Source of the DNA: Symbiodinium sp. CCMP2592
Lineage: Eukaryota; Sar; Dinophyceae; Suessiales; Symbiodiniaceae
Reading direction: 5' to 3'
Assembly: GCA_905221615.1 (NCBI GenBank)
Contig: CAJNDT010002001.1
Span: 1,824,881 to 1,888,880 of the forward strand
DNA length: 64,000 bases
Part shown: one piece after another, positions 9,850-50,535 of the stretch
Position numbering within the stretch: the stretch's first letter is position 1
Layout of the letters: each line of letters opens with the position of its first letter
The notes under the pieces: generated by a model
The model's database searches: none
Told to the model about the DNA's origin: nothing
Seen by the model: the letters and a program-made list of their open reading frames with translations, nothing else
Translations under genes and position numbers: made by a program

Positions 9850-9905
9850 AGTTGCAAGCGCTACACGCAAGTTGCAGCAAGAGGCTTGCAGACGCCTGCT
9901 GAGAG
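9850..9905 (+). CDS. Candidate exon, coiled-coil type, abutting the tandem repeat
   Basis: After GATTGCGCAG the frame reads VASATRKLQQEACRRLLR. Its right end meets the first unit of the ~300-bp tandem repeat, which begins GTTTTTATTTCG. The GT at that junction could serve as donor. Confidence 0.4.
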
Positions 9906-10812
9906 TTTTTATTTCGTCTCATCGTTTGAATCCTTGCCATTTGCGAAGCTTTGGGGTGTATGGTTTAAGCCCTAACTTGAAGTAGGTCCCAGGGGTCCTG
10001 CCAGAAGCTCGCGCGAGATGGTAAGATACACGGTGTGCCCATGCTGTGAGACTCGACTTCCACCGTCCTCAGCCTCAGCTGCGGCTGTGGATTCTCCGAT
10101 TTTCTGAGCAGCGCCTCAAGTCACAATACCCAGTACTTGGCTCGCATACAGTCTTACAGTGCTGGGATTCCCAATTGTCTATCTGAAACGCCAAACGCAC
10201 CCGCCACGTGCGTTTTTATTTCGTCTCATCGTTTGAATCCTTGCCATTTGCGAAGCTTTGGGGTGTATGGTTTAAGCCCTAACTTGAAGTGGGGTCCTGC
10301 CAGAAGCTCGCGCGGGATGGTAAGATACACGGTGTGCCCATGCTGTGAGACTCGACTTCCACCGTCCTCAGCCTCAGCTGCGGCTGTGGATTCTCCGATT
10401 TTCTGAGCAGCGCCTAAAGTCACAATACCCAGTACTTGGCTCGCATACAGTCTTACAGTGCTGGGATTCCCAATTGTTTATTTGAAACGCCAAACGCACC
10501 CGCCACGTGCGTTTTTATTTCGTCTCATCGTTTGAATCCTTGCCATTTGCGAAGCTTTGGGGTGTATGGTTTAAGCCCTCACTTGAAGTAGGTCCCAGGG
10601 GTCCTGCCAGAAGCTCGCGCGGGATGGTAAGATACACGGTGTGCCCATGCTGTGAGACTCGACTTCCATCAGCCTCAGCTGCGGCTGTGGCTTCTCCGAT
10701 TTTCTGAGCAGCACCTAAAGTCACAGTACCCAGTACTTGGCTCGCATACAGTCTTACAGTGCTGGGATTCCCAGTTGTCTATCTGAAACGCCAAACGCAC
10801 CCGCCGCGTGCC
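9905..10812 (+). repeat. Three tandem copies of a 299-307 bp unit
   Basis: Units begin GTTTTTATTTCGTCTCATCG at 9905, 10212 and 10511, and each ends near CGCACCCGCCACGTGC. Copies are nearly identical. Unit 2 lacks AGGTCCCA, and unit 3 lacks CCGTCC in the CAGCC-rich part. Each unit contains CTGCCAG, then AAGCTCGCGCGAGATG (CGGGATG in units 2 and 3), then GTAAGATAC. That layout resembles a 16-bp exon between an acceptor and a strong donor. The array otherwise looks like duplicated intron. Confidence 0.85.
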
Positions 10813-17544: not shown

Positions 17545-18265
<721 letters not shown>

Positions 18266-18458
18266 CTCCGAACGACTAAGGGTTGGTTCCTCACGCTGAG
18301 CCATGTGCCATGTGCCAACAGTTTGCGTCTGAGCCGCCAGGTCCCAATTCCTGGACCCAGTACCCTGTCTCAACACGGGCCCACTGGGCAGGCGGTAGGG
18401 TTTCCACTAGCCGCGTGGTGGAGGGAGTCACTCGGCTTGCCTTGTGACGAAATAGCGG

Positions 18459-21400
18459 ATGGCGCTGCTCCCAGTGCACTCACAAAATTATTCTCAGATC
18501 AGGAAGAATTCTTTCAAGCATGTTTGCCGACAGGTGGCTGCAAGCCAGCAGCCTGTTTCTTACCGAGGTCAGGTTCTGACCCCAGCTCTTCTCAGGCGCA
18601 TGGGCAACTGCCCACCGCAGCCGGGCTCCAAGCAGTCTTTTGCACCACGATCTCGGGCAGGACAGGCCACCAGGCCTCTCCGAGTACTGTCCTGGAATGC
18701 AGGCCATCTTGGCCAGCAACAATGGTCGGAAGTCAAATCATGGCTCTCCACTGAGGCACACCACACCTGTGATGTGTTCGTCCTGCAGGAGACCCACTGG
18801 CAGGCTACGGCCGAATTTAGTGTTGCAGGCTGGTACTGCATCTCGTCTGCTTCTGCTGCAGATCCGAAGGCCTCTAGACGAAAGCAACGCGGGGGCAAGG
18901 CCCATAAACAGTCACCTGCAGAGGCAATGCCTAATGACGATAAGATGACCCCACCCCGCAAGGAGCCCTCAACAACTCGCGCGGACGGGGTTATGGTTTT
19001 CCTGTCCCCACACATACTGCCCAAAAGTGTGCGCTGGCAGGAACATGTCATAGGCAGAGCCCTGGAGGTCAGGTTTGACTGGCACGGGGCCCGCATCAAC
19101 CTGGTTGCTGTGTATCAACACGTCTGGTCACCGGCCAAGCAGGTACAGACCAATCGTCAGGACAGAGCACATGTCCTGAAGGCTCTTAGCAGATGCGTGC
19201 AACGCGTGCCGCACAGGGACACGCTTATCCTGGCAGGAGATTTCAATAGTTCCTTGCAAAAGCAGCCTAGGCTGGTTGGTCCAGAGATCATTAGCCCACA
19301 GGAACCGAGATCTGATGAGCCAGAGCTTACCAACTTTCTGCTTAATCATCGCTTGGTTGCCCTCAACACGTGGAGGCCTCAGCCGCCACATACGTTTCAG
19401 CAAGGGGATACGCGCACTCAAATTGACTTTGTGCTTACGAGGGAGGTCTCTGCTGGAGGAGCTGCCAAAAACTCTACGCCGCTGGCAGCTTTCCCGCTTG
19501 GAAGCTGGAAGAAAGGCGGGCACTTACCCATCAGTGCAGCTGTCAAACCAGTTCGGCACTGGAACCTGCCAGCCCCTCAGATACAGCAGCATCATTATGA
19601 CACCGCTGCTCTGCAAGCGGCTGTCAGGGACAACACGCTGCCAGCTCAGCACATGCTCGAGTGGGTTACAGCACGACTCACTCCGGACATGCAGCCGGCG
19701 TCATGGGATCGCCTCCTTGGCGAAGCCGCATCCAGGTTTTTCCCTAAGACCCCAGTGGCAATGCCAGATAGTCCGGAGACGAGCCTTGCCAGACGCATGT
19801 GGCGCTCGGCGCGTGGGAGCAATGCTCACCCCAGTGCGGAGCCATCGCCGGAGGATGAAGCCCGGCAGAGGCTGTGTGATCAGCATAAACAGGCGGTTAA
19901 GCAGGCTCGCAAGGACCAGACCAAACGGTTTCTTGCTGAGGTTGATCAGGCTCTGAGCCAGGGCGATCAGCACCTGGCATATCAGACTCTTAAGCACCTC
20001 CGGCCGTGGAAACCGGCTTTGAAAGCTCAGCTTAAGGACGCGCACGGCTTCCTGCTCAGTCCTGCAAACGAACTGGATGAACTGGGGAAGTATGCAACTA
20101 AGGTCTTTGCGGCGCACCCACAGCTCCCGTCTGATTCGGGACTCCTGCCCCTATTGCCACAGACCAAGTTAGCAAAACATATTGCCTCGATCAAGCCTAG
20201 CAAGGCAGTTCCGAAAGGAGCGGCACCGGCCGCAGCCTGGAAGCTCTGTGCTCAGCCGATCTCTGCGGCGCTTTCACAATACTGTTCAAGCCTGACGCAG
20301 GACCAGTCACTGGACGACGATCTGACTCGCGCAGATCTCTGCTTAATCCCAAAACCGGGCAAGCCGGCTGACAAGCCTTCACAACTCAGGCCGCTGGGCA
20401 TTCTTCGCCCGGATGCTAAAGGACTGGCGGGCACGGCCAAGGAGCTCCTGGAGCCTTTCACGCTGCCATACATGAAGCCTCTACCCCAGTTTGCATACCT
20501 CCCTGGGAGAGGTCTTTCGGATGCACAGAGCAGAGCGGTTCAGCATTTAAGGGAAGCAAGGCAGCTCTGTCGCAATGCGAATCTCACCCGAGCGGATCAG
20601 CAGCGGGGACAATGTCCTGTAGGTCTCGTCGGCGGCATCACTTTCGCACTAGACCTGTCACAGGCATTCGACACTGTGTCCCGAAGTGAGATCTTGTCCC
20701 TGCTAGATGAGCTGGGCGCGGATCCCCCGCTTAAGAAACTCATACACGGCCTTCATCATCGATCTAAATACAGACTTCATTCTCAGGGGGCCTACAAGGA
20801 CGTGGAAACTACCACTGGCATCAAACAAGGCTGCAAGTTGGCCCCCACGCTGTTTTCCGTGCTCACAGGCCGCCTCCTTCATAGACTGATAGACGCATTT
20901 GGCTGGGACAATGTCCGCAGATACTTTACAGGTTACGCGGACGACTTCACCATGCATCGCACCATCCGCAGCCAAGCAGACGTGGACGCTGCTCACAAGA
21001 TGATCCTACAGCTTCTGTCGGAGGTGACGAAACTGGGATTACGCGTCAACCCGGCCAAATGTGCCATGCTAGTCAAGCTTAACGGCAGAGAGGCGGAAGC
21101 CGTGCTTCAGAAGCACACCTGCTGGCTGCCCGACTCGACGGGCACACTACAGCGGCATTGGCGACTGGGCAAGCACAGATCCTTCCCTGCATACAAACTT
21201 GAGGCGCAAATCAAGTACCTGGGCATCCAAATTTCCTATGGGAACTTTGAAATGCAGACGCTGCGATTCCGCATAGCGGAGGCTGCCAAAAAGCTCCAGC
21301 AGGTCAAGCGATTCGTCTACAATCGCCGCACCGCGGGGCCAATGGCCAGGCTAAAGGTCTGGTTCACCACCGTTTGGGCCACCTTGGTCACGGGACTCCC

Positions 21401-23399
21401 CGAAGTCGGCCTCACGGAGGAGACGGCCAGGCATCTTAGAGGCTGGTATGCACACAAGATACGCTCGGTCCTCAATCAGCCTGCACACGTCGGCCACACA
21501 CCTACAGCTGACCTGTACCGACTATATTCAATCCAAGACCCGGTAGCCAAAATCCAAACAAGGATGGCTTCTAGACTCAAGCGGTTGTGCAAGAGAACAG
21601 CCCCCTCCGAAGCCACCACTACAGCCCTGCCTGCACACACTCCCAGTGAACCCTCAGCGACGCGGGGCCCATGGGCCAGGCTGAGTCCACCAGCGACGGG
21701 CCTAGCAACACACCAGCAGCCGTCTGAACCACATACATACGGTGACGTCACGCAACTGAGCCACGTCGTACAGGACCTACAGGACATGCTGAGAGAGGTG
21801 GAAAACCTCCCGGCGAGCACCGAGGCCTCACAGCAGCGGCTACACGCCTGCCCTCACTGCGAGTCGGGTTTTGTCTCTGCACATGGCTTACACATGCACG
21901 TCACGCGAATGCATCGCGAGCACGTGCAAAGGTACATTCCCCCCTCCTTTGATCGCAGTCGGCACTCCAAGGATGGTCTACCTGTATGTTCTGCATGCGA
22001 CAAGGCTTTCCATCAATGGAAAGGCCTACGTGACCATCTCTTATCGGGGGCCTGCACGCAGCCGGAACGACTGCGTCAGATCTCTCTCACCACTGAGGAA
22101 CAGATGCAGGGTCAGGCCCTCCAGGGCCTGGCGGCCTTTCGCGCCAAGGTGCAGAGTTCGCCCAGCAACAAACTCAGTGCCATTGCCACCCGGCCAGAGG
22201 CTCAGGAGCTTAAGCATCGGTGCATTTTGTGCGGTTTTTGGACCCCGGACCATACCAAGATGAAGAATCATCAACGACAGGCCCATGCACAAGCATGGCA
22301 GCGAGATGGTCCGGCAGCACTTCAGCTTTGCAAGGCCTATTCTGTGCAGATGATAAAGGGGCACCCCTGCCCCTTTTGCAGGCTGCCGGTCTATGACAAA
22401 CGCAAACACCCTGAGCAATGCATTGTCCTGTTTCAGGTTCTGCTTGGGTGGCACAAGGTGCAAGGCACGGACAAGATGCGGGAACAATGTTCCAAGCCTC
22501 ATCCCAAGACCGCGGTGACAATGTCACTTAGTGGCTTTTTTGGGGCTGCAGACAAGCCAGCTACCGCGGCTGCATCACCCACTGTTGCCATGGCAACGAC
22601 GGGCGCCGTCGGCAGCACTCTCCCGCCAGGCCTGTATTCTCGTATGCGACACATGGTGAACTCGGGTAACACCTGCTATGTCAATGCGACCATTCAGGCC
22701 CTACTAGCCGCGCTAGACTCTGCGTCCAATGTAGCGGAACTGGGACCACTGGTCCAACACTGCATCAACCCGGAAGCGGATCCAATGGATACGAGGCACA
22801 TAAACCCTCCAAGCCTATTCGCTCTCCGGTCCTTAGTGCCTAGATGGCGATTCGATGGCCGTCAACAAGACGCCTCCGAATTTGTCACATACATGCTAGA
22901 GCACAACACGGGGACTCTGCAACCCGCTCGCTGGGAAGGACGCACTAATGGAGTGCCGGAAAGTGAGGATGACGGCCTCACGCCGTTGCTGCTGCCCCTT
23001 TCCTCAGCCTGTCGTACACTGCAGCAGGCCTGCACGGCATGGTATGACCACACGTTCCAGCGCGCCCTGGCATGGGCCCCTGACATCCTGCCAGTCACAA
23101 TCGCTCGATGGATGGACGGCACAAAACGACGCACCCCGCTGGACCTGCGCAGGCACCTCTCAATGCCGTCTTGGATTGAGGGTCAGGGCCGGCAATGGCA
23201 TCAATATGCAGTCATTTCGGGAGTTTTTCACATAGGTGCTGACATACACTCCGGCCACTACCGGTCCTTCTGGATTCACCCAAATGGAGGCGCGCTGTAT
23301 GTGGGGGATGATGCCACCCGCCCATACCCAGCCTCGGCCTCAGATCGCAAACATGTTATGGAAGACTGCTACCTCCTTTTCTTGAGAAGACAGGAGTGA
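18459..23399 (+). CDS. LINE polyprotein: endonuclease, reverse transcriptase, zinc fingers, ubiquitin-specific protease
   Basis: Single ORF of 1646 codons; ATG 18459 follows an in-frame TAG at 18453, though Met48 (18600) could also be used. Residues about 75-360 form an APE-type endonuclease: VLSWNAGHL (Asn80), LQETHW (Glu111), LAGDFNS (Asp261, Asn263), TQIDFVL (Asp323), GGHLPIS (His355). Residues about 620-940 form a reverse transcriptase: FALDLSQAFDTV (Asp732), GIKQGCKLAPTLFS, GYADDF (Asp828/829). Cys/His fingers follow: CPHC...H-x4-H from Cys1131, CSAC at 1177, CILC at 1255, CPFC at 1304. Residues about 1395-1646 read as a C19 ubiquitin-specific protease: GNTCYVNATIQALLA (Cys1406), RQQDASEF, IHSGHYRSFW (His1600), GDDA (Asp1617/1618). 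The first parts nick DNA and copy RNA at the target. The USP would remove ubiquitin and could stabilise element proteins (inference). All catalytic residues appear present. Confidence 0.93.
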   Translation: MALLPVHSQNYSQIRKNSFKHVCRQVAASQQPVSYRGQVLTPALLRRMGNCPPQPGSKQSFAPRSRAGQATRPLRVLSWNAGHLGQQQWSEVKSWLSTEAHHTCDVFVLQETHWQATAEFSVAGWYCISSASAADPKASRRKQRGGKAHKQSPAEAMPNDDKMTPPRKEPSTTRADGVMVFLSPHILPKSVRWQEHVIGRALEVRFDWHGARINLVAVYQHVWSPAKQVQTNRQDRAHVLKALSRCVQRVPHRDTLILAGDFNSSLQKQPRLVGPEIISPQEPRSDEPELTNFLLNHRLVALNTWRPQPPHTFQQGDTRTQIDFVLTREVSAGGAAKNSTPLAAFPLGSWKKGGHLPISAAVKPVRHWNLPAPQIQQHHYDTAALQAAVRDNTLPAQHMLEWVTARLTPDMQPASWDRLLGEAASRFFPKTPVAMPDSPETSLARRMWRSARGSNAHPSAEPSPEDEARQRLCDQHKQAVKQARKDQTKRFLAEVDQALSQGDQHLAYQTLKHLRPWKPALKAQLKDAHGFLLSPANELDELGKYATKVFAAHPQLPSDSGLLPLLPQTKLAKHIASIKPSKAVPKGAAPAAAWKLCAQPISAALSQYCSSLTQDQSLDDDLTRADLCLIPKPGKPADKPSQLRPLGILRPDAKGLAGTAKELLEPFTLPYMKPLPQFAYLPGRGLSDAQSRAVQHLREARQLCRNANLTRADQQRGQCPVGLVGGITFALDLSQAFDTVSRSEILSLLDELGADPPLKKLIHGLHHRSKYRLHSQGAYKDVETTTGIKQGCKLAPTLFSVLTGRLLHRLIDAFGWDNVRRYFTGYADDFTMHRTIRSQADVDAAHKMILQLLSEVTKLGLRVNPAKCAMLVKLNGREAEAVLQKHTCWLPDSTGTLQRHWRLGKHRSFPAYKLEAQIKYLGIQISYGNFEMQTLRFRIAEAAKKLQQVKRFVYNRRTAGPMARLKVWFTTVWATLVTGLPEVGLTEETARHLRGWYAHKIRSVLNQPAHVGHTPTADLYRLYSIQDPVAKIQTRMASRLKRLCKRTAPSEATTTALPAHTPSEPSATRGPWARLSPPATGLATHQQPSEPHTYGDVTQLSHVVQDLQDMLREVENLPASTEASQQRLHACPHCESGFVSAHGLHMHVTRMHREHVQRYIPPSFDRSRHSKDGLPVCSACDKAFHQWKGLRDHLLSGACTQPERLRQISLTTEEQMQGQALQGLAAFRAKVQSSPSNKLSAIATRPEAQELKHRCILCGFWTPDHTKMKNHQRQAHAQAWQRDGPAALQLCKAYSVQMIKGHPCPFCRLPVYDKRKHPEQCIVLFQVLLGWHKVQGTDKMREQCSKPHPKTAVTMSLSGFFGAADKPATAAASPTVAMATTGAVGSTLPPGLYSRMRHMVNSGNTCYVNATIQALLAALDSASNVAELGPLVQHCINPEADPMDTRHINPPSLFALRSLVPRWRFDGRQQDASEFVTYMLEHNTGTLQPARWEGRTNGVPESEDDGLTPLLLPLSSACRTLQQACTAWYDHTFQRALAWAPDILPVTIARWMDGTKRRTPLDLRRHLSMPSWIEGQGRQWHQYAVISGVFHIGADIHSGHYRSFWIHPNGGALYVGDDATRPYPASASDRKHVMEDCYLLFLRRQE

Positions 23400-23403
23400 C
23401 TCT

Positions 23404-23425
23404 GACTCACCCTCAAGGGGTGAGT
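23404..23425 (+). other. Hairpin just after the LINE stop codon
   Basis: ACTCACCC pairs with GGGTGAGT around a five-base loop, six bases after the TGA. It could be a 3' UTR signal for the element RNA; it may equally be chance. Confidence 0.4.
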
Positions 23426-24184
23426 GCTGGCCCTCCAAACCTAGGAATGCGTGCACCAATAGGGTGCCTGTGCGTGGGAAGGCCGGACCCCACAATAGGT
23501 GGGCATGGCCCCCCCCACGTCAAGGCCAAGCATGCTTTAGGCATGCGCAGGCTTACCCGCAGCTTTTCAGGCTGACCCAGCATGGCTGACACGATCCACA
23601 GCCCGGACCACAAAAGTGGTCGAACCGCCTCTCCCCTGGCTCCAGATTCACTAATGGGAGAGCCATCTGAGCCGCTTGGGGTCGACACTCGACGCCAGAC
23701 ATCCGGAGGCGGCAAGCAGCGGCAAGGCAGCGCCCTGCATGCCCTCTCCAACGCTGCAACCAATGGTGCCACTGGCAGACTAAGCAGTAAGTCGCGGAGG
23801 CCATGCCTGTTCTCACTTGCGTCTCTTCCGAGACAGACTGATGGCCCTTCTGCCGGATGCCGCCGCTGTCAGTCGGAAATCATGCCCTAGCCTGCTGCCG
23901 GTCGCGCTACTGCTGCTCTGCTGACAGCATACACAACGCGAATTCCGTTTCAATGTTCAGGTACATACAACAATCTGGAGCTTGATACCCTGCAGCCTGC
24001 AAACTCGCTTTGGCTGATCACTGCCAGTTAGCTCAAAGCCTGTAGGCCGCAACCACTCAAAGGTCTTTTGACCTGGGCGGATCAGCTATAGGGTCTGAGT
24101 CAGTTTCACACCAAAGTGAGTGCACCGCGGCAATCGCCCGCTATGTGCAGAGCCCGCTCGCACAGCGTTCAATTGAATTGAAAA

Positions 24185-24186
<2 letters not shown>

Positions 24187-24280
<94 letters not shown>

Positions 24281-24396
24281 GTAGTGGTAGTGGTAGTGGT
24301 AGTGGTAGTGGTAGTAGTAGTAGTAGTAGTAGTAGCAGTAGTAGTAGTAGTAGTAGTAGTAGTAGCAGTAGTAGTAGTAGTAGTGGTAGTAATCAC
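24187..24396. repeat. (TAG)n array, LINE 3' tail
   Basis: Begins after TTGAATTGAAAA; pure TAG to about 24280, then TGG/CAG interruptions. Similar triplet-derived sequence (GTC, GTT) continues to about 24545. Confidence 0.92.
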
Positions 24397-28583: not shown

Positions 28584-28892
28584 TTGTTTTGTTTCAGGAA
28601 ATCACGTTCATCCGTCTTTTTTCTGATGAGTGAGGGTTCAGGAGTGTTAGGCATGTCGGGCCTCAGTGTCTGCAGCCTCGGCCAACCCAACTTAGAAGTT
28701 GAGGGTGAATGCTCCAAGGTTCGACGGGATGGCTGCGTACTTTGTTCATGCTTGCACGCTTGCTTTCCTAGTTGGCAAAACGCGGAGCAGTGCCTGGCAG
28801 CTCTCGAGCTTCCTGCTTGTTTGAAGCGCTGTACCCGGTCGGGGAATCACGACTGTATGCTGGAACCGACTGCACTCGCACCACAGTCATAA
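28584..28892 (+). CDS. Candidate Cys-rich ORF
   Basis: The second half reads DGCVLCSCLHACFPSWQNAE, QCLAALELPACLKRCTRSG, NHDC, with many cysteines, ending at a stop. The first half is weaker. May be a 3' exon; no known cysteine pattern is recognised. Confidence 0.28.
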   Translation: MFCFRKSRSSVFFLMSEGSGVLGMSGLSVCSLGQPNLEVEGECSKVRRDGCVLCSCLHACFPSWQNAEQCLAALELPACLKRCTRSGNHDCMLEPTALAPQS

Positions 28893-29102
28893 ACGGCTGT
28901 CTCAAGCCACCCGACCAATGAGATGATGGTGCAGAATCAAATCCAGCCAATCGTGTCAAGTTGAGAAACATGTAGAATACAAGTGGTATACATGTTTGAC
29001 TCGAAAGATGATGTGCTCGGAAAAAGTACTTAGTATGTGACTGAAACTTCCAGCCGTTTCTTGTGCCAGCAAGGATGATTAAAAGCAGCTGGTTACACAA
29101 GC

Positions 29103-29248
29103 AACTGTACGAGCACAGGATATGCGTATGCGTACGCGTATGAATGAATGACTGAAAGAACGCATAAACGTATGTATGGATGTATGTATGAATACAATAT
29201 ATGTATGTGATATGTGTGTGTACGCATGCATGTATGCGTGAATATGTG

Positions 29249-29284
<36 letters not shown>

Positions 29285-29660
29285 CATATATATATATACA
29301 CGCATCTGTATGTATATGTATGTGTGATTGTGCCTGTCAGCGCATGTGTGTGTGCGCATGTGCGTACATGTGTCTGTGTTTGTCTGTTTGCATGGGTGCA
29401 TGCATGCACGGCGGCATGCATGCATGTGTGTATGTAAGACACGTGGAAGGTAGTGTGACGTAACGTAATGTGGGGAAATGTATGAAATGTGATGTAATGT
29501 AATGCAATGCACGTCATATGTATGTACGCATGTATGTATGCATGCATGTATTCATGCATTCGTTTATATGTTTACATTTGCTTGACATATGTAATCACAT
29601 GTATGTACGCGCATGCTCATATTATATCTATATATACATATGTATATACTCACATTTTAT
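29103..29660. repeat. ATGT/GCAT/TA microsatellite region
   Basis: Compound repeat of ATGTATG, (TA)n, TGTGCG, GCATGCATG and AATGT words. Purine-pyrimidine alternation is long enough to favour Z-DNA. No gene. Confidence 0.88.
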
Positions 29661-49162: not shown

Positions 49163-49880
49163 GTCCGACACAGCCTGCGGATTTCGAGATCTCGACATTG
49201 ATGCTGCCTGCGAAGTAGTGGGCGCAATTTTAATCTCCCAATTTTACGTTAGTGCCAAAGCGACTAGGCCTTGTGACCGTCGATCGCGTGAGTCGTCAAT
49301 TCGTCCAGCCTGGAGCATCCGGCCGCACCTCAGACGAAAGAAAGAGTCAAGCAAAAGGGGTGCCGTTCTTCAGATGAACAGAAGGGGCGTGTCAATTAGG
49401 ACTGCAGGAGGCCGCGTGTGGGTAGGAGGTACAAAGGGGAGGCTGAAGCCTAGCAAAGTTGCTCCGACGAGCAACGTTTGAAGATGGCCTTTGCGGGAAC
49501 AGCCTTACTTCGGAATCAAGCAGTCGAGGCAAACCAAGACAGTCGCAGCCCAATGCCATTCATTCGCTCTGAAGGCCTGGGACGAAGTCGGCGAGAAAAC
49601 TCCAGCTCCTCCGGCACTGCTACCTGCACCCAAGGAGTCGGGAGAGGCTTTGGATGTGCGGCGGCTTTAGGTCAGGGCTTGCGGTGGTTTTGCCTGAGGG
49701 GGTTTCGAGATGCAGGCATGTTGCAATGGGGTCTACTCTTTTGTGTTTGGTGTGTTGCATGACATCGGTTCACGACGCCCTACACAGTAATCGCTTCTTT
49801 TTGTACATGTTTGTACTCCTGATGGAAGTATCGTGCAACATCGTAAAATAATACGCACGCCAGAACCTTGAAACCTTGCT
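49163..49880. other. No supported gene
   Basis: Intergenic or UTR of the module gene. Short + frames only; TTTGCGG/GGGTTTCGAG words but no ordered repeat. Confidence 0.35.
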
Positions 49881-49883
49881 GTA

Positions 49884-50040
49884 CAAGGCACTTTCTCCGA
49901 CAAGCCCTTTTGGAAGAGTTTGGCAAACTTATCAGCCCAAAGTTCAAAGGCTTCGGGCGCGGGGTCTAATAGCAGACTTTTGAAACCATCAACAGGTTGT
50001 ATAAAGGGCCACAGGAGGTACAGGAGGTAGCTCAGCCTTG
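49884..50040 (-). CDS. Candidate exon, minus strand
   Basis: Minus frame reads LSYLLYLLWPFIQPVDGFKS, LLLDPAPEAFELWADKFAKL, FQKGLSEKV. Clearly protein-like with hydrophobic start and helical end. The same frame is open to 50497, but beyond 50040 the sequence is telomere-like. Confidence 0.42.
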
Positions 50041-50535
50041 GGCTGCATTTGGGGCAAGGTTCAGTGTTTGCTTGTTCTTGGCGTGACTGCTCTTCTGTGC
50101 ACAGCCAGGGCCAGTTCATGTTTGTCAACGCAGCTGCATGCCTCTTACAACCTGGCGAACATCGAAGCAGCCATTTGCAGGAGCCCACCATGCCGATCAT
50201 CGCATCGGGGCAGTACGAGCCAGGCTTGGCACCAGAACGCCCCAGCCCTACGAAGCCGGGCCCAGACGCTAGACACCCCCAAACCCCTGAAACCCCTGGC
50301 CCCAAGCTCAGCATTTTCCCAAAACCTTCTTTCTCAGTCTCGGAGCACGAGTCCGGTGCATAAGTCCCACGTCGTGGTGTATAGGCCCCAATTAGCAGCG
50401 TGTCTGGCCCCCTCACCATGCTCATCGAACTTGCAGGCCATTCCGTTCTGGCTACAAGGGACCTTGCGCCTGCAGCTGTAGAGATCCCGGATGACAAGGA
50501 GCTTACTTGTCGGGTTGGGGGCGTCGTGAGCTCAA

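Follow-up and report, generated by a model that had tools for sequence, protein, structure and literature searches.

A LINE family of Symbiodinium sp. CCMP2592 that inserts into TAG microsatellites and carries a ubiquitin-specific protease-type domain

Long interspersed elements (LINEs) with an added enzyme have been described before. Symbiodinium harbours LINEs with a DNA methyltransferase, SymbioLINE-Dnmt (PMC5890265), and the NeSL and Utopia-1_TSP LINEs bear a Ulp1-like cysteine protease (PMC4640811); microsatellite-specific LINEs are known as well, for example Togen, which targets (TG)n in fish (PMC4640811). Here, we analyze a LINE from Symbiodinium sp. CCMP2592, found in a stretch of 64,000 nucleotides (contig CAJNDT010002001.1, positions 1,824,881 to 1,888,880, forward strand; hereafter the window), whose single open reading frame (ORF) ends in a domain of the ubiquitin-specific protease (USP, peptidase family C19) type. 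How does it compare with its described counterparts? With SymbioLINE-Dnmt it shares a related host and a host-type enzyme that was acquired and is apparently under purifying selection, but there the methyltransferase lies in a separate ORF1, whereas here the USP closes the only ORF and Pfam finds no DNA methyltransferase within it. Like NeSL and Utopia-1_TSP, it is a site-specific LINE with Cys/His fingers and an enzyme of the ubiquitin/SUMO-protease type; those elements, however, combine an N-terminal Ulp1-like (C48) protease with a restriction-like endonuclease, in contrast to the C-terminal USP (C19) and APE endonuclease found here. The likeness to Togen lies in microsatellite insertion, while the (TAG)n target, the APE endonuclease and the USP set the present element apart. 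The combination of APE endonuclease, USP and TAG target occurs in none of the LINEs compared. The openly licensed literature yielded no LINE with a USP (Repbase-type reports lie outside this coverage), and within the same bounds the remark of a preliminary description, made from the DNA letters alone, that such a fusion is not a known standard arrangement holds.

The frame is the longest of the window's four ORFs of at least 250 amino acids and contains zero internal stops. Its matches to Exo_endo_phos, RVT_1 and UCH each exceed the curated Pfam cut-off of the model concerned, with the endonuclease placed N-terminal of the reverse transcriptase (RT). Among solved structures, L1 ORF2p outranks R2 in the structure-database matches, which is a ranking and not a phylogeny. 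The ORF and its parts are as follows:

18459..23399, + strand: single ORF, endonuclease, RT, four Cys/His fingers, USP (Pfam; 1646 amino acids)
18687..19445, + strand: APE-type endonuclease, residues 77-329 (Exo_endo_phos, 2.4e-8)
20346..21233, + strand: RT, residues 630-925, with active-site YADD at 826 (RVT_1, 8e-22)
21849..21914, + strand: Cys/His finger 1, residues 1131-1152 (Cys/His cluster)
21987..22055, + strand: Cys/His finger 2, residues 1177-1199 (Cys/His cluster)
22221..22286, + strand: Cys/His finger 3, residues 1255-1276 (Cys/His cluster)
22368..22421, + strand: Cys/His finger 4, residues 1304-1321 (Cys/His cluster)
22518..22541, + strand: PIP-box-like motif TMSLSGFF, residues 1354-1361, in the linker N-terminal of the USP (motif comparison)
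22653..23396, + strand: USP/C19 domain, residues 1399-1646, Pfam match 1399-1618 (UCH, 8e-11; profile; fold)
22674..22676, + strand: codon of catalytic Cys1406 (invariant in both USP alignments)
23256..23258, + strand: codon of catalytic His1600 (invariant in both USP alignments)
23307..23312, + strand: codons of Asp1617-Asp1618, third member of the triad (invariant in both USP alignments)

The unbroken 1646-codon frame, the APE endonuclease and RT motifs and the four finger-like clusters announced in the preliminary description are thus all present, although no zinc-finger model scores above its Pfam cut-off in the protein. The same is true of the C19 motifs, which lie where they had been placed: Cys1406 in GNTCYVN, QQDASEF at 1469, His1600 in HSGHYRSFW and GDDA at 1616.

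The kinship of the C-terminal domain with USPs rests on Pfam, profile and fold. The similarity to C19 peptidases is significant (UCH, PF00443, 42.4 bits against a cut-off of 23.9), the domain has the USP fold, and the catalytic Cys, His and Asp boxes are invariant in all 13 rows of the USP alignment. A LINE-type endonuclease-RT polyprotein with a true USP-fold domain and a complete catalytic set is therefore supported. By profile and fold, its best solved neighbours are USP46 and USP12 (PDB 5k16, 5l8h), with many other USPs tied within about 2 Z in the fold comparison. The domain agrees with the catalytic domains of USP12 and USP46 in fold and in catalytic Cys/His/Asp, but differs from them by about 20% identity only, by the absence of a fingers subdomain and by its fusion to a LINE protein. 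Another comparison is with giant viruses, whose USPs (BFVD: Pithovirus LCPAC404 and others) likewise put a compact USP fold on a selfish element; these are, however, free-standing proteins (TM 0.63 and 18% identity to the element's USP). A viral source of the element was considered and rejected, since none of 67 pattern matches in viral contigs (alignment A1) was confirmed by tblastn. No cellular parent of the USP was found among 14 matches with E <= 1e-5, which does not amount to absence because only the best 7998 candidates of 5.8 billion proteins, limited in length, were scored.

Judged by its copies, the element is a mobile, recently active family with a full-length member in the window. 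The genome to which the window belongs (1.098 Gb in 5383 contigs) gave 28 scored matches among the best candidates, the window copy included: 25 span residues 1-1646, all 28 are free of stops inside the match and 18 are at 100% identity (rounded). Twenty copies were fetched, of which 18 are open to the end, one of them with a small in-frame shortening; in the other two, L026 and L027, a frameshift falls inside the USP. All 17 fetched copies of standard length, to which the tabulation was confined, retain intact catalytic residues. A 26-base piece of the 5' end has 106 exact occurrences in the genome, against 0 for the reversed control. These counts also bear on the idea of a USP that works in trans or to the host's benefit, restraining transposition or protecting host proteins, and that the element is partly kept for that purpose. 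The same idea has been raised for methyltransferase-bearing Symbiodinium retrotransposons (PMC5890265), but near-identical copies at many loci and the 106 exact 5' ends look selfish and recently active, and selection seems to act on the whole ORF (see below), which leaves such a role very unlikely here. Two copies are of interest in themselves. L025 (G000:C890:1097940-1107930) appears recombinant, its 5' half being like L028, with silent differences near zero in the endonuclease, and its 3' half, from residue 931 on, being identical to the window copy in dN/dS terms (ratio of replacement to silent substitutions). L011 (G000:C975:53770-63760) has a full ORF, its homology to the other copies stopping 97 bases past the stop codon with no TAG array after it.

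Among the 20 copies fetched, nearly all insertions lie in TAG microsatellites, as in a microsatellite-specific LINE; beyond their untranslated regions (UTRs), the copies have in common only this repeat. A TAG-type hexamer lies within 20 bases of 17 of the 18 canonical 5' ends and of 17 of the 19 canonical 3' ends, compared with 0.7% of random 20-mers from the surrounding DNA (40,000 draws). The array makes up at least 30% of the 60-base flank at 16/18 5' and 13/19 3' ends, against 2.0% of random windows. Left out of these counts are L009 and L022, which have no canonical 5' end, and L011, which has no 3' end. The array nearly always runs in one orientation relative to the element, the exception being L012. 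As the flanks are themselves microsatellite, a target site duplication is indistinguishable from the array. At L017, the copy is followed head-to-tail by a second, divergent element, whose 5' end, TAGCCGCCAC, is similar and whose endonuclease start is related; because this element begins within the same TAG array, the target is common to more than one family.

Relatives carrying the same fusion extend well beyond these copies. In a homologue search with residues 1120-1646, in which the best 8000 candidates (most words in common) were scored, 17 homologues of similar length were found; RVT_1 is present in all 17 and a precomputed UCH match in 9. Two of the 17 carry a Symbiodinium microadriaticum annotation. 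With the most distant homologue as query, a further search added three proteins (RVT_1 in 3/3, UCH in 2/3), one of them from Symbiodinium sp. CCMP2592. The UCH model gave 148 matches in the window's genome (best 149 of 1371 candidates), with the window's own family outside the scored list, and by eye we counted about 70 of them in open frames of at least 1000 amino acids. Three of these large USP-bearing frames were read. L035 combines an RT with four Cys/His clusters, the first matching zf-C2H2 at 1.1e-4, just below the cut-off, and a USP. L036 has the four clusters and the USP with no RVT_1 match, the fetched stretch starting in an apparent RT end. In L034 (G000:C1007:42925-46734), the USP is N-terminal and the part seen contains no RT, Pfam returning UCH models alone; its later part looks Helitron-like by eye only. 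Although identity among eight USP representatives falls to 20%, all eight retain Cys, His and Asp-Asp unchanged. Further USP-LINE families of deep divergence exist. UCH matches are regularly spaced on contigs G000:C994, C2844, C3007, C1987, C417 and C5128, as in tandem arrays of USP-bearing frames; on G000:C994, for example, pairs of matches separated by 2961 bases follow one another at intervals of about 17.5 kb.

Is the USP of use to the element that carries it? For the USP, pairwise dN/dS by NG86 (six pairs, four distinct sequences) ranges over 0.069-0.121; the endonuclease has 0.074-0.106 and the RT 0.022-0.065. The ratios indicate that the USP part is under purifying selection and that selection acts on the whole ORF, and purifying selection on the USP fits a use to the element. 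The preliminary description had proposed this test, together with a search for the fusion elsewhere, and had allowed for a chance 3' join; recurrence in 25 of 28 scored copies and in other families, along with the low dN/dS, rules such a join out. In a set of 12 proteins, the distances between the RTs track those between the USPs (correlation 0.96), and both trees part the window, P0002 and P0013/14 from P0018, P0033 and P0034 with full support, inner nodes being partly weak. The USP has accordingly accompanied the RT since before these families separated. A single USP origin in all families is neither rejected nor shown (p-AU 0.477, the outside rows being two other USPs of the genome only).

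On balance, we lean towards the view that the USP is an element-borne deubiquitinase acting in cis, which would shield the RT complex from ubiquitin-dependent restriction. The preliminary description had likewise supposed that the element may deubiquitinate its own RNP or host factors and so escape turnover. In mammals, LINE proteins undergo ubiquitin-dependent degradation, with TRIM41 acting on ORF2p (PMC10716122) and TEX19.1 with UBR2 on ORF1p (PMC5570191). The Symbiodinium USP would accompany the RT protein on the RNA of the element and strip the ubiquitin that host ligases put on the RT complex, or on host partner factors at the insertion site. The complex would thus be spared degradation or block until target-primed reverse transcription ends, and the element would evade ubiquitin control throughout, from translation up to insertion. 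The Cys/His fingers, for which the preliminary description had suggested DNA or RNA as target, may recognize the RNA of the element or its TAG microsatellite, a DNA target that this description had not noticed, and the LxxFF motif of the linker may dock the enzyme on PCNA. Taken as a whole, the sequence evidence suggests an element that counters the host protein-disposal system while spreading.

The linker between finger 4 and the USP bears on two further readings. It is poorly conserved except for LxxFF, which takes the forms TMSLSGFF in the window, TRSLKDFF in the P0002 family, AGPLQSFF in P0013, SGSLRRWF in P0033 and TGRLDSYF in L035. The strict form [ILMV]xx[FYW][FYW] is present in 20 of 23 proteins examined, with P0018 and P0035 showing a WL form, and across five anchored families only two columns, Leu and the last Phe, are the same in all five. 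We take the motif to resemble the core of the PCNA-interacting (PIP) box minus its Gln. Cellular USP1 removes ubiquitin from PCNA. Human L1 ORF2p binds PCNA and depends on it (PMC5821460), although a different PCNA site has been proposed for the same protein (PMC7617806). Docked on PCNA at the insertion site, where ubiquitinated clamp and fork proteins would be within reach, the USP could strip ubiquitin from PCNA or fork proteins, so that the RT, and not a translesion polymerase or repair pathway, would hold the nicked TAG repeat to the completion of insertion; we offer this as a speculative and rather unlikely extension. The second reading takes the USP for a processing protease that cuts the element's own polyprotein, for example freeing the RT from its tail. 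The USP does end one long polyprotein, behind a variable linker, and viral polyproteins are often cut by their own cysteine proteases. USP-fold enzymes, however, cut after the C-terminus of a folded ubiquitin-like protein, and the ORF contains no ubiquitin-family match (Pfam, E up to 1), nor is the linker conserved outside LxxFF; self-processing is therefore quite improbable.

Several observations weigh against a cis-acting deubiquitinase and the features on which we build it. Typical USPs have a zinc-binding fingers subdomain that this domain lacks (between the two matched parts, the profile has 37 positions where USP46 has 95 residues), because of which the modifier removed might not be ubiquitin. 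The enzyme would then take off another ubiquitin-like modifier (SUMO, NEDD8 or a dinoflagellate one), likewise escaping a host mark. USP18, an ISG15 enzyme, is among the structural matches, and cellular members of the Ulp1-like family act on SUMO. Ulp1-like proteases occur in other LINEs (PMC4640811). With USP46 and USP12, both ubiquitin enzymes, as the best profile and fold neighbours, albeit in the near-tie noted above, we regard a different modifier as somewhat unlikely, though worth keeping in mind. Moreover, a single-sequence search of the PDB returned RTs only and no USPs, and the precedents for ubiquitin restriction are mammalian. The USP evolves faster than the RT, and the young copies differ too little to show selection on it (one silent and one replacement change). 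The latter point and the two frameshifted copies among 20 speak for a passenger or chance 3' fusion useless to the element; low dN/dS, catalytic residues invariant over deep divergence and recurrence in other families make that hardly tenable. L026 and L027 are themselves scarcely independent, as their common flanks point to a duplicated pair. At the target, the TAG array fills less than 30% of 60 bases in 6/19 3' and 2/18 5' flanks, and the junction misses are L012 (5', an array in CTA orientation) and L015 and L025 (3', degenerate repeats). A young family also does not fit the description of Symbiodiniaceae LINEs as mostly old and divergent (PMC8045281). As for the linker, the strict motif is absent from 3 of 23 proteins, L036 has none, P0034 is doubtful and the PIP-like motif is without the canonical Gln; since the relaxed motif arises in shuffled linkers at a frequency of 0.016-0.72, single cases prove nothing and the evidence lies in conservation.

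The element, at about 6 kb, is larger than its ORF. Copies have a 5' UTR of about 291 bases, which leaves no room for a separate ORF1 and rules one out; their 3' UTR measures 778-785 bases, or 988 in L028. Of the 20 copies, 19 possess the 3' end, and in these it closes with a tail of 2-9 A; the 5' end is constant and differs from the 3' end, and there are no long terminal repeats. In L010 and other copies, the 5' start TAGCCGCCACGGCTCAGA is similar to the dinoflagellate spliced leader, whose consensus we take to be TAGCC.....GGCTCA; chance or a trans-splicing link are both possible. The window copy departs from the others upstream of its untouched ORF, and the parts on either side of the ORF are as follows:

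17571..17623, no strand: AGT/TAG microsatellite upstream of the element, left part of the target array
17635..17726, - strand: first 92 bases of the 5' UTR, inverted (identical, as reverse complement, to the 5' end of other copies)
17724..18151, no strand: CTA array of 143 repeats, reverse complement of the TAG target, within the inverted stretch
18260..18458, + strand: remaining 5' UTR, resuming in normal orientation, intact
23400..24184, + strand: 3' UTR with a short A tail at its end, the 3' end of the element
24185..24391, no strand: TAG microsatellite adjoining the 3' end, right part of the target array

Because the inverted stretch contains the target array, the rearrangement was more likely an inversion that followed insertion, or an assembly error, than the usual 5' inversion of LINEs. 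Elsewhere in the window, a 299-base unit forms three tandem copies at 9905-10811, the ORFs at 28768-29559 (-) and 49733-50497 (-) are without a Pfam match, Rfam gave 0 matches and PADLOC nothing beyond generic RT matches.

Finally, we would place the element in the context of the conflict between LINEs and their hosts. Within the literature covered, it would be the first description of a USP-type deubiquitinase in a LINE lineage. If our account is true, a deubiquitinase supplied by the LINE itself would represent a counter-move to ubiquitination-based LINE restriction. The question of deubiquitination in cis is testable with one catalytic mutant, with insertion cleanly scored at the TAG microsatellite target, and an arms race would be traceable in sequence through the many divergent families that a single genome contains. 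Should the PCNA-docked reading be true, the large LINE radiation in this one algal genome would reflect an arms race fought via ubiquitin at the replication fork.
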